This document shows positions 10,630 through 15,678 of a stretch of 64,000 nucleotides of DNA, piece by piece. The stretch is taken from contig JAEPOJ010000006.1 of assembly GCA_017642965.1 (NCBI GenBank), positions 1 through 64,000 on the forward strand, written 5' to 3'. This stretch comes from Phycisphaerales bacterium. Lineage in GTDB: Bacteria; Planctomycetota; Phycisphaerae; Phycisphaerales; UBA1924. Position numbers and translations under genes: made by a program. The stretch's first letter is position 1; the number at the start of each line of letters is the position of its first letter. Below the pieces are notes generated by a model. That model saw only the letters and a program-made list of their open reading frames with translations. It was not told the origin of the DNA and ran no database searches.

Positions 10630-11121
10630 ATGCAAGCGCTGATATTCGCTGTGGTCGCGGGGTTGTGCTGGGGGATCGGGGAGGTCTGCGCCAAGGCGGT
10701 CCTGCACACGCACAAGGTCGGGCCGTTCTTCGCCGTCGCGTTGCGGACCACGATCGCGTTGCCGATCATCTGGGGCGCGTATCTGATCGCGCGTCGGCTC
10801 GCGCCCGATGGCGCGGGCAAGGGGCTCTCGCTGCGTGGCGAGGACGCGTTGACGATCAAGCAGTGGCTGCTGCTGCTGGGCGGCTCTGGCGTGGTGGCGG
10901 GCGCGATGGCGATGATTGCATTTTATATCTCGATCTCGTTGGGTGAGGTCTCGAAGATGAAGCCGGTCGCGTTCACGATTGCGCCGGCGGCGGCGGTGGT
11001 GCTGGGGGCGGTGTTCCTGGGCGAGGCGCTGACGGTGCGAAAGGTGATCGGGGTCGTGATCGTGCTGCTGGGGGTGCTGGTGATCGCTTCGGGTTCGGGC
11101 GTGGGGCGCGTACCTACGTAA
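10630..11121 (+). CDS. EamA-family (DMT) membrane protein, single-module
   Basis: 163 residues with about five hydrophobic helices: IFAVVAGLCWGIGEVCAKAV, FFAVALRTTIALPIIWGAYL, WLLLLGGSGVVAGAMAMIAF, VAFTIAPAAAVVLGAVFLGE, VIGVVIVLLGVLVIASG. The pattern, including the FLGEALTVRKVIGVVIVLLG ending, is one EamA module. Typical transporters have two, so this probably acts as a dimer. The substrate is unknown. It diverges from gmhA with only about 30 bp between the starts. Confidence 0.82.
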   Translation: MQALIFAVVAGLCWGIGEVCAKAVLHTHKVGPFFAVALRTTIALPIIWGAYLIARRLAPDGAGKGLSLRGEDALTIKQWLLLLGGSGVVAGAMAMIAFYISISLGEVSKMKPVAFTIAPAAAVVLGAVFLGEALTVRKVIGVVIVLLGVLVIASGSGVGRVPT

Positions 11122-11168: not shown

Positions 11169-12059
11169 TCAGCCGATGGCGCGGATGACGGAGACGCCGG
11201 CGTAGAGCCCCGCGATCTCTTCGCGCGGCACGGTCTTGGGTGCGTAGGCGTTGTTGATCGGCTGGATGCGGATCAGCTCGTCGCCTTGCTCGCCGGTCTC
11301 GAAGTACACGCGTTTGAAGGTGCTCTCCGCGTCGCGCTCGAAGCGAACGAAGCAGTCTGAGCCGGACTCGATCGCCTTGGCGGGCGAGAAGACCACGATG
11401 TCGCCTTCGCGGTAGTTTGGCTGCATGGAGTCGCCCACGACCCGTGCGGCGAAGGCGTCGGGGTCGCTCAGGTCGGGCGTGCGGATGTACTCGTCGGCGA
11501 CGCGGGCGGGGTAGTCGAGATCGGTGAAGCCGGCGGGGTAGCCCGCGGTGACCTTATTGATGAGCGGGACCTGGTTGGCGAGGCGGACGCTGCGCGCATC
11601 GCCCGCTTCGTGCGATTCGGGCGTGGATGGCGGATCGACACGGTCGATGGCGCGGCGCAGCTCGCCGCTGGCGTAGAGGTCGTCGAGCGAGCGGCCCTGC
11701 TGAGCGCTGCGGCTGAGGAGACGTGCGAGCTGCTTGGCGTTCTGATCCTGATCGTGCATGACCTGGTAGTCCGCGCGGATCGGGCCGGGGGTCTGCTCCC
11801 AGTGCGCGAGCGTGAGCAGGTCTCCGGGTGCGCAGCCCAGGGCGGTCTCGATGCGGCGGATGAGCTCGTCGGCGGGGTGGCGCTTTTTGGCGCACTCGAT
11901 GGCGGAGAGGTACGAGGATGTGCACCCCACCCGTTCGGCGAGCTCGGCGAGCGAGAGCCCGCTGCGTCGGCGGAGCTCGCGGAGCTGATCGGCGAAAACC
12001 GGGGCGGGCGGGGATGATCCCGCCGCTATCTCACGATCTGTGCGCTGTTTTGGTGACAT
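11169..12059 (-). CDS. S24/LexA-type repressor with XRE helix-turn-helix (phage CI-like)
   Basis: 296 residues. Residues 22-85 are a Cro/C1-type helix-turn-helix (LRRRSGLSLAELAERVGCTS ... IECAKK). Residues 160-295 are a peptidase S24 domain: a possible self-cleavage Ala-Gly at 172-173, nucleophile Ser211 in VVGDSMQPNYREGDIVV, and catalytic Lys249 in ESTFKRVYFE. CI-like repressors bind operators as dimers and cleave themselves when RecA is activated by DNA damage. It diverges from the phage-like gene set at 12143-15678, the expected position of a master repressor. The ATG at 12059 has no ribosome site and sits directly behind a -10-like TATAGT, so the mRNA may be leaderless. Confidence 0.88.
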   Translation of the reverse strand: MSPKQRTDREIAAGSSPPAPVFADQLRELRRRSGLSLAELAERVGCTSSYLSAIECAKKRHPADELIRRIETALGCAPGDLLTLAHWEQTPGPIRADYQVMHDQDQNAKQLARLLSRSAQQGRSLDDLYASGELRRAIDRVDPPSTPESHEAGDARSVRLANQVPLINKVTAGYPAGFTDLDYPARVADEYIRTPDLSDPDAFAARVVGDSMQPNYREGDIVVFSPAKAIESGSDCFVRFERDAESTFKRVYFETGEQGDELIRIQPINNAYAPKTVPREEIAGLYAGVSVIRAIG

Positions 12060-12064
12060 ACCAG

Positions 12065-12105
12065 ACTATACCCTAACAAATGTACTCCGGATGGTGTATA
12101 CTCCC
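12065..12105. promoter_or_regulatory. Divergent promoter/operator between S24 repressor and HTH gene
   Basis: On the plus strand TATACT (12097-12102) with a weak TAACAA (12074-12079) at 17-bp spacing could drive the 12143 gene. On the minus strand TATAGT (plus-strand ACTATA at 12065-12070) lies only 5 bp before the repressor's ATG. Related octamers TGTACTCC (12081-12088) and TGTATACTCC (12096-12105) repeat in direct orientation over the promoter and are operator candidates. Confidence 0.45.
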
Positions 12106-12142
12106 GAAAATCAACCAAAAAGTGAACGAAGCGGAGCGGAAC

Positions 12143-12616
12143 ATGGTCCGAAGAAGGCACATAGAGAACGTGGACGAGTCGTTGGACCTGCGTCGCAAGC
12201 AAAACCAGCAGCTGTGCGAGCAGATTGTTCGGCGGGCCGGCTGGCTCGCGGGGCGTGACCGGGACATCGCGTTGGGGTACTTCGATCGCGGGATGAACGC
12301 GGCGGAGATCGGGTCGATGCTGCGGATCGACCCGCGGTGTGTTCGTCGGCGGATCAAGCACATCGTCTCGCGTCTGCGTGACCCGCGCTGCGCGTACGTG
12401 GTCTCGCACCGCAACTCGTGGTCGGCGCAGCGGCGGGCCGTCGCCGAGGCGTTGTTTGTCGAGGGGCACTCGATGCGTGAGGTTTCCGTCACGCTCGGGA
12501 TTTCGCTGCATGTGGTGCGCAAGTACCGCGACGCGATCGAGATCATGGCGCAGGCGGACCGGGAGCCCGCGCGGATATCAAGGGCGTGGCAGAACGCGGA
12601 GGGGGTGCGGGCATGA
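12143..12616 (+). CDS. Helix-turn-helix regulator (sigma region 4-like), phage-module gene
   Basis: 157 residues from the ATG at 12143, which has GGAG 6 nt upstream. Two helix-turn-helix-like segments are visible: YFDRGMNAAEIGSMLRIDPR (followed by CVRRRIKHI) and LFVEGHSMREVSVTLGISLH (followed by VVRKYRDAIE). The tandem arrangement resembles sigma-70 region 4-like or Trp-repressor-like regulators in phages. It is the first gene of the coupled set; the next start codon overlaps its stop (ATGA). It is likely controlled by the divergent S24 repressor and may activate the downstream genes. Confidence 0.7.
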   Translation: MVRRRHIENVDESLDLRRKQNQQLCEQIVRRAGWLAGRDRDIALGYFDRGMNAAEIGSMLRIDPRCVRRRIKHIVSRLRDPRCAYVVSHRNSWSAQRRAVAEALFVEGHSMREVSVTLGISLHVVRKYRDAIEIMAQADREPARISRAWQNAEGVRA

Positions 12617-14001
12617 AGCGTTCGGACCGGGTTTCGCGCGTTTCGATCCGGCGTGTGGGAGCGCCGCGCGGTGTTTCGGACGAGCTGGTGCACGCGTGCG
12701 TGGGGTTCGGGGTGCTGCCAACCGCGGCGCGCGAACGTGCGCCGGCGCGGGTGCCGGGTACGCTCGTGCGCGAGATCCGATCGGGACGGGTGGTGCTGCT
12801 CGCGGGCGCGTCGGGGGCCGGCAAGTCGACGATCCTGGGAGCGCTGGCGTGCTCGCTGGAGGGGCGGGGCGTGGTTCGTGTGGCGGAGCGGTTCTCAGAG
12901 GCGGAGTCCGGCCGAGCCGTATTCGACTGCGTGGGTGGCGATCCGCGCCGGCGGAGCGGGGTGCTGGCGCTGGCGGGGCTCGCAGAGCCCACGCTCTGGG
13001 CGCGGGCCGCGGGCGCGTTGTCGGAAGGCGAAGGGGCACGCGTGCGATTGGCGATCGCGATGGCCCGGGCCGAGCCCGGGAGTGTGGTGCTCGCGGACGA
13101 GTTCGCGTCAACGCTCGATCGCGTGACGGCGTACGCGCTCGCGCGGACCGTCCGCCGGTGGGCGCGCCGGGAGCGTGTGGCGTTTGTCGCGTCGAGTGCG
13201 CACGAGGATCTTGAGGCGTGCCTCGCGCCGGACGTGGTGTTTGATGCAGCAACCGGCATGGTGCGCGCGCCACGCGAGTCGAGCGTGCAGCGCGTCCACG
13301 TCGAGCAGGGCAGCATGGATGACTACAGGCGGCTGTCGCACCTGCACTACCGGAACGGCGCGCCGGCTTCGGTTGTTCGGGTGCTCAGGTGCGTGCGTGA
13401 GGTGCCGCGTCATATTGATCCGGCGGGCGAGCTGCTCGCGGGCGTGCTGTGCGTTTCGATGCCCACGCTCAACGGCGCGTGGCGTGATCGGGCCTGGGCG
13501 GGGTTCTTCTCGACGGGCGACAAGCGCCGCGATGCGCGCCGACTCAACACGCACCTGCGGACGATCTCGCGGGTGATCGTCGACCCGAGGAGCCGGGGGA
13601 TGGGCGTGGCGACGGCGTTGGTGCGGTCGTACCTGCGCAATCCGCTCACGCGCGGGACGGAGGCGCGAGCCGCGATGGGCTGCGTGTGCCCGTTCTTCGA
13701 GCGGGCGGGCATGGCCGGCTACGACCTGCCGCCCGACCTGACCGATACACGCCTGCTCGATGCGCTCGGGCACATGGGCATCGCGCCTGCCCAGCTCGCG
13801 CGGACCCGTTTGCGAACGGGCTCGCTGCTGGAGCGGGAGCTCACGACGTGGGGCAAGCGGCGGAAGCTGCTGCCCGCCGGGAATCACAATCTAGAAGAAG
13901 TTCAGCGGCTCACCCCCACCGCCGCGTGTCGTTTGTGCTCACGCCCCCGCGCTTACGCGTATACGAAAGGCGATTGGGGAGATGAGGAACACGACACATG
14001 A
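12613..14001 (+). CDS. ABC-type ATPase fused to a GNAT acetyltransferase-like domain
   Basis: 462 residues. The N-half is an ABC nucleotide-binding domain: Walker A GASGAGKST at 65-73, ABC signature-like LSEGEGARVRLA at 136-147, Walker B VVLADEF at 158-164, and an H-loop histidine at about 197. No transmembrane segment is present, so it is a soluble ATPase rather than an exporter. The C-half carries a GNAT signature (RVIVDPRSRGMGVATALV at about 320-337), and the tail has CRLC (C-x2-C). The fusion is translationally coupled to the HTH gene upstream and overlaps the small gene that precedes the terminase. The function is unknown. Packaging-linked DNA work or modification of a protein or nucleic acid is inference only. 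Confidence 0.8.
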   Translation: MKRSDRVSRVSIRRVGAPRGVSDELVHACVGFGVLPTAARERAPARVPGTLVREIRSGRVVLLAGASGAGKSTILGALACSLEGRGVVRVAERFSEAESGRAVFDCVGGDPRRRSGVLALAGLAEPTLWARAAGALSEGEGARVRLAIAMARAEPGSVVLADEFASTLDRVTAYALARTVRRWARRERVAFVASSAHEDLEACLAPDVVFDAATGMVRAPRESSVQRVHVEQGSMDDYRRLSHLHYRNGAPASVVRVLRCVREVPRHIDPAGELLAGVLCVSMPTLNGAWRDRAWAGFFSTGDKRRDARRLNTHLRTISRVIVDPRSRGMGVATALVRSYLRNPLTRGTEARAAMGCVCPFFERAGMAGYDLPPDLTDTRLLDALGHMGIAPAQLARTRLRTGSLLERELTTWGKRRKLLPAGNHNLEEVQRLTPTAACRLCSRPRAYAYTKGDWGDEEHDT

Positions 14002-14185
14002 GGCGTTGCCGCAGCCGCGGCATGAGCGGGGAACGGGTCATCTGGCGAGCGCGCTGACGTTTTATGTCACGCGTGCGCAGCGGGCGCGGATCCTTCGCAT
14101 CCTTGGGCAGCTGAGCGATGACCGGGCTCGTGCGCTGCTGATCGCACTCTCGGAGATCGAGGCGGGAGAGGGGGTGTGCCCGTGA
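13982..14185 (+). CDS. Small protein between ABC-GNAT and terminase genes
   Basis: 67 residues, overlapping the ABC-GNAT gene by 20 nt and joined to the terminase gene by TGATG. The core ALTFYVTRAQRARILRILGQ (followed by LSDDRARALLIALSEIEAG) is helical and amphipathic. Its position suggests a terminase small-subunit or adaptor role, but no motif proves this. The ribosome site for the ATG is poor, and translation may depend on coupling. Confidence 0.55.
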   Translation: MRNTTHEALPQPRHERGTGHLASALTFYVTRAQRARILRILGQLSDDRARALLIALSEIEAGEGVCP

Positions 14186-15678
14186 TGAGCGAGCAGGCGA
14201 TGACCCCTTGGAGTGAGAAGCCGCAGACCTCGGACCAGCTGCACGACTGGCTGCTGCGGCATCTGTCGATCCGGGTGGTGCGTGAGGCGATCGTGGACGG
14301 GCACAGTGCGCCGTTCGAGTATCTGTGCCACGCGTTCTTCGAGGACCGGTTGCCGCGCGACTGCGTGGTGTGGGCGAACCGGGGCGGGGGGAAGACATAT
14401 TACGCGGCGGTCGCGACGCTGCTGGACATGGTGTTCAAGCCCGGGATCGAGATCCGGATCCTGGGTGGGTCGCTGGAGCAGAGCAAGCGGATGCACACGC
14501 ACCTGCGCCAGCTGTTCTCGGTTGAGCCGCTCAACGAGCTTGTTGAGGGCCGGATCACGGAGCGGCGCATCCGCCTGAGCAACGGGTCCGCGGCGGAGCT
14601 GCTGGCGCAATCGCAGACATCGGTGCGTGGCACGCGGGTTCAGAAGCTGCGGTGCGATGAGCTTGAGCTGTTTGATCGGGAGGTGTGGGAAGCGGCCCAG
14701 CTGACGACACGCGAGATGCGCAGCGGCGCGGGGCGTGTGCGCGGGAGCATCGAGTGCTTCTCGACGATGCACGTGCCCTACGGGCTGATGCACGAGCTGA
14801 TCGATGCGAGCGCCGGCGGGGGCACGCCGCGGCGCGTGTTCAAGTGGGGTGTGGTGGACGTGCTCGACGCGTGCGATGACGATCACGCCTGTGTTTCGGA
14901 CGATGGCGCGTGCCCGCTGGTGGCCGAGTGCGCGGGGATGGCCAAGCGGCGCCGGCGTCGCCCGCGCAGCCCGGGCGAGGTGGCGGGGCACATCGGGATC
15001 GATGACGCGATCGGGCTCAAGCAGCGTGTCGGCGATGCGACGTGGAAGGCGGAGATGCTGTGCCTGCGCCCGCAGCGGAGCGATTGCGTGCTGCCCGAGT
15101 TTGATGAGCGTGTGCACGTTGTGGACGCGGTCCCCGATTCGGCCCGCCGGGGTGCGTGTGTTGCGGGGATGGACTTCGGTATCCGCTCGCCGACGGTGGT
15201 GCTCTTCGCGCACGTCGACCCGGGCGGGGTGCTGTGGGTGGTCGGCGAGCACGCGCAGAGCGACACGGCCCTGGACGAGCACGTGCGTGTGATCAAGGGC
15301 CATGATCCGGCGCCGGGCTGGATCGGCGTGGACCCGGCGGGGCGTCAGCGCGGGCTGCAGACGGGGATCAGCGATGTGCAGGCGATGCGCCGGGCGGGCC
15401 TTGTGGTGAAGGACCGGAATCTGGGGCTGCACGAGGGGCTCAAGCTAATCCGGGCCCGCCTGCGACCGGCGAGCGGCGGTTCGCGCCTGTATGTCCATCG
15501 CTCCTGCACGCGCCTGATCGATTCGATGCACAAGTACCACTATCCAAAGGACCAGCCGTTCACGGACACCCCGAAGAAGGACGGGCACGACCACTTCGTG
15601 GATGCGCTGCGATACCTGATCCAGAACCTGGACATGGGGTACACGAGCAGGGCGGAGCGGTACATCCCCGCGACGTGA
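14185..15678 (+). CDS. Phage-type terminase large subunit with Cys-rich insertion
   Basis: 497 residues from the ATG at 14185, which overlaps the upstream stop. The ATPase domain has Walker A RGGGKT (66-71), Walker B LRCDELE (Asp158, Glu159) and a coupling motif CFSTMH. The RNase H-like nuclease domain has acidic residues in GMDFG (Asp330), GVDPAG and HDHFVDALRYL. Between them lies C-x5-C-x6-C-x5-C (Cys 230, 236, 243, 249) followed by KRRRRRPR, a likely metal-binding DNA-contact element. Large terminases cut and pump DNA into capsids. No portal, protease or capsid gene follows; the next genes are on the other strand. The motifs look intact, so this may be a domesticated or split packaging motor. 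Confidence 0.85.
   Translation: MSEQAMTPWSEKPQTSDQLHDWLLRHLSIRVVREAIVDGHSAPFEYLCHAFFEDRLPRDCVVWANRGGGKTYYAAVATLLDMVFKPGIEIRILGGSLEQSKRMHTHLRQLFSVEPLNELVEGRITERRIRLSNGSAAELLAQSQTSVRGTRVQKLRCDELELFDREVWEAAQLTTREMRSGAGRVRGSIECFSTMHVPYGLMHELIDASAGGGTPRRVFKWGVVDVLDACDDDHACVSDDGACPLVAECAGMAKRRRRRPRSPGEVAGHIGIDDAIGLKQRVGDATWKAEMLCLRPQRSDCVLPEFDERVHVVDAVPDSARRGACVAGMDFGIRSPTVVLFAHVDPGGVLWVVGEHAQSDTALDEHVRVIKGHDPAPGWIGVDPAGRQRGLQTGISDVQAMRRAGLVVKDRNLGLHEGLKLIRARLRPASGGSRLYVHRSCTRLIDSMHKYHYPKDQPFTDTPKKDGHDHFVDALRYLIQNLDMGYTSRAERYIPAT

Follow-up and report, generated by a model that had tools for sequence, protein, structure and literature searches.

The five-gene cassette at positions 11169-15678 of a Phycisphaerales bacterium contig (JAEPOJ010000006.1) is probably the half that supplies packaging motor and switch to a split, vertically inherited, chromosomal system of the class Phycisphaerae that resembles a gene transfer agent (GTA), i.e., a GTA-like (viriform) system. 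Coordinates refer to the window, the whole stretch of 64,000 nt that was analyzed, unless a contig is named; the window's own genome is designated G000 and its family f1. This reading draws on observations of which genes are present and of their homology, on co-occurrence and vertical inheritance, and on purifying selection and a shared promoter element, and judged by gene content the cassette and its head genes are better termed GTA-like than a proven GTA. Open reading frames (ORFs) were called mechanically, and the five cassette genes were all present with every frame open:

11169..12059, minus strand: S24 (LexA/CI-like) repressor with helix-turn-helix (HTH) and peptidase S24 domains (PF00717, 3e-16; N-terminal HTH PF13560)
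12143..12616, plus strand: HTH regulator with two sigma-region-4-like HTH domains (PF04545, alignment, AlphaFold2 model)
12613..14001, plus strand: soluble ABC ATPase fused to a GNAT-like domain (PF00005; phrog_293/phrog_11143, phrog_886; alignment; model)
13982..14185, plus strand: small protein of 67 aa, the surviving ribbon-helix-helix-like C-terminal tail of a ParB-like protein (reciprocal profile matches)
14185..15678, plus strand: terminase large subunit (TerL) with ATPase and RNase H nuclease (PF17289, phrog_2)

The head genes lie on another contig of the same genome (C22, about 59.7-65.4 kb), where the portal is adjoined by a scaffold-like protein (weak matches), the major capsid gene, and two or three small conserved proteins:

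G000:C22:63898-65382: portal, SPP1-type (profile E 3e-165)
G000:C22:62105-63244: major capsid, SU10-type, PF17236 (E 3.6e-89)

The SPP1-type portal (PF05133) profile matched 131 of 298 genomes of the class, and the SU10-type capsid family was likewise found in 131 of the 298 as compared to none of 14 control genomes, these and all such counts being dependent on assembly completeness. The capsid is 52-79% identical across families of the class, and is thus more conserved than the terminase; its profile matches the solved SU10 head protein 7z45 at 1.5e-12. Searches of the PDB returned no match for the two small head proteins or for the portal profile. A reading of the window made earlier from the sequence alone (the sequence-only reading) had described the cassette as genuinely capsid-less, as sporadic matches to the HK97 families PF04860 and PF05065 first suggested as well, but this interpretation was abandoned once the correct families had been found, as conserved portal, scaffold, and capsid genes occupy a second site of the genome. 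That reading had also proposed a search of the rest of the genome for portal and capsid genes, and both were recovered on C22. A portal profile derived from families f10 and f25 was confined to these two and part of f15; its weak side matches in f14, f1, and f15 proved to be one SPP1-type portal family with 44-63% mutual identity. Portal and capsid of the Nickievirus type (phrog_145/phrog_1357) were both present in G065 and G075 among 32 genomes tested, with the portal only in G183, and were rejected as the missing head because they were absent from the window's genome and from all tested genomes of its order.

The two loci occur together far more often than chance would allow. According to lists compiled by hand from terminase, portal, and capsid profile searches of the 298 genomes, 138 genomes have a terminase; the portal was detected in 122 of these, the capsid in 123, and the full set in 117 (Fisher p about 1e-53). 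This co-occurrence of the terminase with second-locus portal, scaffold, and capsid genes strongly supports an option raised by the sequence-only reading, namely that the cassette is part of a GTA-like system scattered over the chromosome. In family f14 the order S24|HTH-ABC-GNAT-TerL-portal-scaffold-capsid is contiguous (L193; L290 from GNAT onward), and in free phages from IMG/VR (L350-L355) terminase, portal, scaffold, and SU10-type capsid stand in one block, an arrangement presumed to be ancestral. Both loci are on one chromosome in the single-contig genomes G078, G113, G119, G124, G212, G237, G284, and G304, and contamination of bins therefore cannot explain the pairing; the spacing is about 12 kb in G124, 40-65 kb in G212, G237, G284, and G304, and greater in G078, G113, and G119. 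Terminase and capsid distances were correlated in a mirror-tree comparison (r = 0.74, with 0 of 10000 permutations as high), which fits shared vertical descent.

Of 61 relatives, 50 had a terminase orthologue, one per genome and 44-80% identical, the contigs of these relatives being mostly Phycisphaerales, and the profile search that detected the gene in about 138 of the 298 sampled class genomes found it mostly in single copy. When the phylum was sampled, 30 of 36 profile matches fell within the class and the six others were weaker. The arrangement repressor-HTH-ABC-GNAT-terminase is repeated, far beyond chance, at about 40 loci within the order and also across the class, often with the same downstream genes (encoding 83 aa, DUF6677, and 212 aa proteins), from which we conclude that the locus was inherited in place. 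In a tree of 58 terminases, families f1, f4, f5, f6, f11, f18, and f23 each formed one clade with starred support. Because families are single clades in this tree, terminase and capsid distances correlate, and flanks are conserved, inheritance has been mostly vertical, with co-diversification with the host.

The catalytic residues of the terminase are intact, and its sequence is under purifying selection. Walker A (R69-T74), D161-E162, S196-T197, and the nuclease residues D333, D386, and D469/D472/D476 (numbered from a start at 14176) are invariant in 28 homologues. Terminase dN/dS against the closest relatives was 0.15-0.25, similar to that of flanking genes, and the HTH and ABC-GNAT genes were looser at 0.19-0.48, all of these ratios being rough because pairwise dS was high (0.6-2.8). 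The sequence-only reading had suggested that the set may be domesticated and, given its retained catalytic residues, is not simply decaying, and both points are borne out by the invariant residues, the low dN/dS, and class-wide vertical inheritance; of the two outcomes it had named as damaging to it, a dN/dS near 1 and an occurrence solely as pieces of otherwise complete prophages among close relatives, neither was encountered. As separate observations on this protein, four cysteines between ATPase and nuclease (C233, C239, C246, and C252) are also invariant in the 28 homologues and may form a metal-binding insertion, and the closest viral relatives of the ATPase part (IMG/VR L098-L120, 36-43%) have ATPase and RNase H split between ORFs, and in some of them two ORFs are nuclease-like.

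Two elements were recognized around the start of the repressor gene:

12027..12045, plus strand: promoter element TATCTCACGATCTGTGCGC (19 nt, equal to TATCTCACGATYTGTGCGC), with an exact copy at the portal-capsid locus on C22
12058..12078, plus strand: conserved operator-like repeat in the divergent promoter, consensus ATACCATACAnnnCCCTTGCA, window copy ATACCAGACTATACCCTAACA

The former is the sole match to TATCTCACGATYTGTGCGC in the window at ≤3 mismatches (0.01 expected by chance), and two copies with 0 and 2 mismatches lie upstream of the portal gene (0.00 expected). The operator-like repeat was found between the S24 and HTH genes in about 35 loci. The repressor itself has the residues expected of a self-cleaving repressor of the S24/LexA type: because the cleavage dipeptide (A172-G173) and the Ser/Lys dyad (S211/K249) are invariant in 23 homologues, LexA-like induction of the cassette, which the sequence-only reading had raised as a response to DNA damage, is plausible. 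The AlphaFold2 model of the HTH protein (pLDDT 84.7) contains two sigma-4-like HTH domains, and its Foldseek matches in the PDB, to sigma region 4 and KorA, were weak; for these reasons the protein is likelier to be a regulator, with TerS as a less probable role. In the leader of the HTH gene, f1 relatives (L045, L070-L075, and kin) share two elements that are degenerate in the window, the palindrome GTTCACTnnATTGTGAAC and, downstream of it, TGTGnnATGTCAAGTG...CACA.

The remaining cassette genes appear to have been built from a phage packaging module. The cassette ABC, GNAT, and ParB parts match phrog_293, phrog_886, and phrog_723, to which gp157, gp155, and gp160 of Pseudomonas phage nickie respectively belong, and these parts and the terminase are, by homology, descended from such a module. 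In other families ABC and GNAT are separate, neighbouring genes; this is mostly so in f4, f5, and f6, where ParB-like and TerS-like genes also precede the terminase. ParB and small-protein profiles find each other (ParB profile to small protein, 2.5e-10; in reverse, ParB tails at 4e-14 to 1.5e-6), which identifies the small protein as the surviving ribbon-helix-helix-like C-terminal tail of a ParB-like protein. All 15 loci of f4-f6 contained TerS versus 2 of 26 of f1, and the window's family has by this comparison lost both the ParB domain and TerS. For the ABC-GNAT protein (model pLDDT 88.6), the best lead to its chemistry is a published prediction that an ABC ATPase coupled to a GNAT acylates a base in DNA (PMC7824862, citing Iyer et al. 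2013). No homology of the GNAT domain to Mom was detected (hhalign probability 0.4%, no phrog_1384 match). The annotations of phrog_886 and phrog_293 as ABC transporter or subunit are misleading: the former is GNAT-like, the latter is a soluble ABC ATPase, and both belong to a module associated with packaging.

At the level of coordinates, the four plus-strand genes overlap by 4 nt (HTH/ABC-GNAT, the latter starting at ATG 12613), 20 nt (ABC-GNAT/small protein), and 1 nt (small protein/terminase), in agreement with the sequence-only account of a repressor diverging from four genes with overlaps of these lengths. The frame of the HTH gene opens at 12080, with the ATG at 12143 its likely start on the evidence of homologues and alignment, and closes at 12616; the terminase starts at ATG 14185, with GTG 14176 as an alternative, and its family assignment rests on PF17289 (3.7e-5, over the cut-off) and phrog_2 (7e-18). 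The cassette and its immediate flanks were searched for portal, capsid, tail, and integrase genes and contained none, as the same account had stated. Its description of the flanking genes as ordinary also stands, but not its placement of them all on the other strand: the EamA gene on the left (10630-11121) is on the plus strand, whereas the downstream genes, for the 83-aa and DUF6677 proteins, are on the minus strand. No integrase or replication gene was recognized in scans of the cassette and the head locus.

Other head genes were seen in these genomes and in viral sequences. The window's genome has one further SU10-type capsid gene, of more divergent sequence (G000:C13:41814-42941), and an HK97-type portal and capsid (G000:C55:117380-122917) that were not found in the congeners G006, G007, and G010 and are thus prophage-like. 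In f10/f25 (L189 on G065:C3; L274 and L253 in G075; L276/L275 in G183), portal phrog_145, scaffold phrog_206, and capsid phrog_1357 lie beside ABC-GNAT-ParB-TerS-TerL; this Nickievirus-type head module is conserved between two or three species with ordinary genes flanking it, and may represent either another GTA-like domestication or a prophage that has been conserved. Two IMG/VR sequences classed as viral (L348 and L349; 41 and 62 kb) encode SU10-type capsids whose identity to the chromosomal protein is 61% and 54%, with no portal or terminase of the system in the stretch read. In some other families, LamG-like fibre genes lie 3' of the capsid gene.

If the cassette is the motor and switch of a GTA-like system, a plausible course of events would begin with the S24 repressor holding the divergent promoter, which would be freed when the repressor cleaves itself in response to RecA-type activation or some other host signal, as its conserved residues suggest. 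The double-HTH protein would then be made and may act on the TGTGCGC-type element common to both loci, switching on the head locus. ABC-GNAT would act on DNA, perhaps by the acyl marking predicted in the literature, and either the small ribbon-helix-helix-like protein or the HTH protein could replace the lost TerS/ParB specificity; in f1, loss of the ParB domain and TerS would remove sequence-specific initiation of packaging. TerL, given its intact motor and nuclease and the presence of portal and capsid, would cut chromosomal DNA and drive it via the portal into a capsid of the SU10 type, and lysis would release particles that might bring DNA to kin. Because the genes are split over two loci, their co-packaging in one particle is unlikely. 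In its most specific form, that of an independently domesticated, class-wide GTA of Planctomycetota with SU10-type capsid, SPP1-type portal, its own self-cleaving repressor, an ABC-GNAT protein that marks DNA for packaging, and a packaging start made non-sequence-specific in the window's family by the shedding of TerS/ParB, we offer the proposal tentatively.

Several findings weigh against a GTA-like interpretation. Particle formation, DNA transfer, and the induction route are predicted from the genes. No gene for a tail or for adsorption was recognized around the head cluster in the window's genome, nor was a lysis gene found in the parts of this genome that were read. Of the 138 TerL genomes, 16 lack a detected portal and 10 (including G057) lack portal and capsid, part of which may be explained by incomplete assemblies, and the mirror-tree correlation owes as much to the shared history of the species as to a functional link. 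For the 19-nt element the comparison covered only the window's genome, where its 5' part overlaps the first S24 codons; relatives share just its core. A scan of relatives for a wider regulon placed good sites for the predicted operator at the cassette only; the operator was thus rejected as the link between the loci, and any control of the head locus by the repressor must be indirect.

The lack of identified adsorption genes in the window's genome, the putative chemistry of ABC-GNAT, and indeed the same genetic evidence as a whole would also suit a domesticated virion system with another purpose. Its particles might, for example, be loaded with the cell's own DNA to serve as a decoy, a nutrient, a template for repair, or part of a matrix, or kin might be killed by means of capsids. 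We consider such a purpose rather unlikely: because an intact terminase ATPase and nuclease have been retained for the whole history of the class, DNA packaging itself seems to have been selected. Were the cassette instead a unit of its own, acting as a DNA translocase/nuclease or in DNA modification, with the portal-capsid cluster an unrelated second domestication, one could account for the unlinked loci in the window's genome, the ten TerL genomes in which neither portal nor capsid was detected, and the DNA modification predicted for ABC plus GNAT (PMC7824862), but not for the strength of co-occurrence, the contiguity in f14, the 19-nt element at both loci, or the single block in free phages, which make this explanation quite improbable. 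A prophage, decaying or active, would be suggested by the phage homology of every part and by the divergent S24 repressor typical of prophages, yet flanks conserved in genus and order, a tree sorted by family, low dN/dS, the lack of an integrase at either locus, and near single-copy, class-wide orthologues at conserved loci largely refute it, and we regard it as highly improbable.

Attributes listed for GTAs are multi-locus endogenization, vertical co-diversification, caudovirion-like particles, mostly random host DNA, incomplete packaging of their own genes, and delivery to cells (PMC9662315); the first two were found here, in the split over several loci and in the descent with the host. The 2022 classification included only three GTA groups with an established genetic basis (PMC9662315), and a 2024 review noted that GTAs outside alphaproteobacteria are hard to find, detection leaning on similarity to known ones (PMC11841831). 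Our literature searches found no report of a GTA or such a system in Phycisphaerae/Planctomycetota, which is no proof of novelty, and those on COG2401 and on Phycisphaerae terminase/GTA yielded nothing relevant. If the GTA-like interpretation is true, it would mean that GTA-like particles arose independently, and long ago, in Planctomycetota, a lineage widespread in the environment; sister families f4-f6 and the window's family would offer a natural test of why GTAs lose TerS specificity, and the co-occurrence of TerL, portal, and SU10 capsid would be a handle for finding more such systems.

Like the known GTAs (Rhodogtaviriformidae/RcGTA, Bartonella BaGTA, and Brachyspira BhGTA), the Phycisphaerae system has phage-derived terminase, portal, and capsid, is vertical, occupies several loci, and shows no propagation genes. 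It differs in its SU10-type PF17236 capsid and SPP1-type PF05133 portal, in that its particles are predicted from genes, and in a motor cassette with ABC-GNAT, a ParB remnant, and its own S24 switch. Membership in Rhodogtaviriformidae was ruled out because portal and capsid are of other types: a control Caulobacter genome matched PF04860 and PF05065, not PF17236, whereas matches to the former two are only sporadic here. The Nickievirus/SSU5-like/RHEph10 module (ParB-ABC-GNAT-TerS-TerL-portal-capsid) has a similar order, the ParB, ABC, GNAT, and TerL of the cassette match its families phrog_723, phrog_293, phrog_886, and phrog_2, and SSU5-like and Rhizobium phages carry a similar module ahead of terminase and portal; in contrast, the cassette is chromosomal and vertical, its ABC and GNAT are fused, the ParB domain and TerS are lost in the window's family, and the portal and capsid families are different. 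With the predicted ABC plus GNAT system for acyl modification of DNA it shares a soluble ABC ATPase coupled to GNAT, although here the protein sits in a packaging cassette. With SU10-like phages it shares the PF17236 major capsid (4e-89), which in Phycisphaerae belongs to a chromosomal cluster without phage replication genes.

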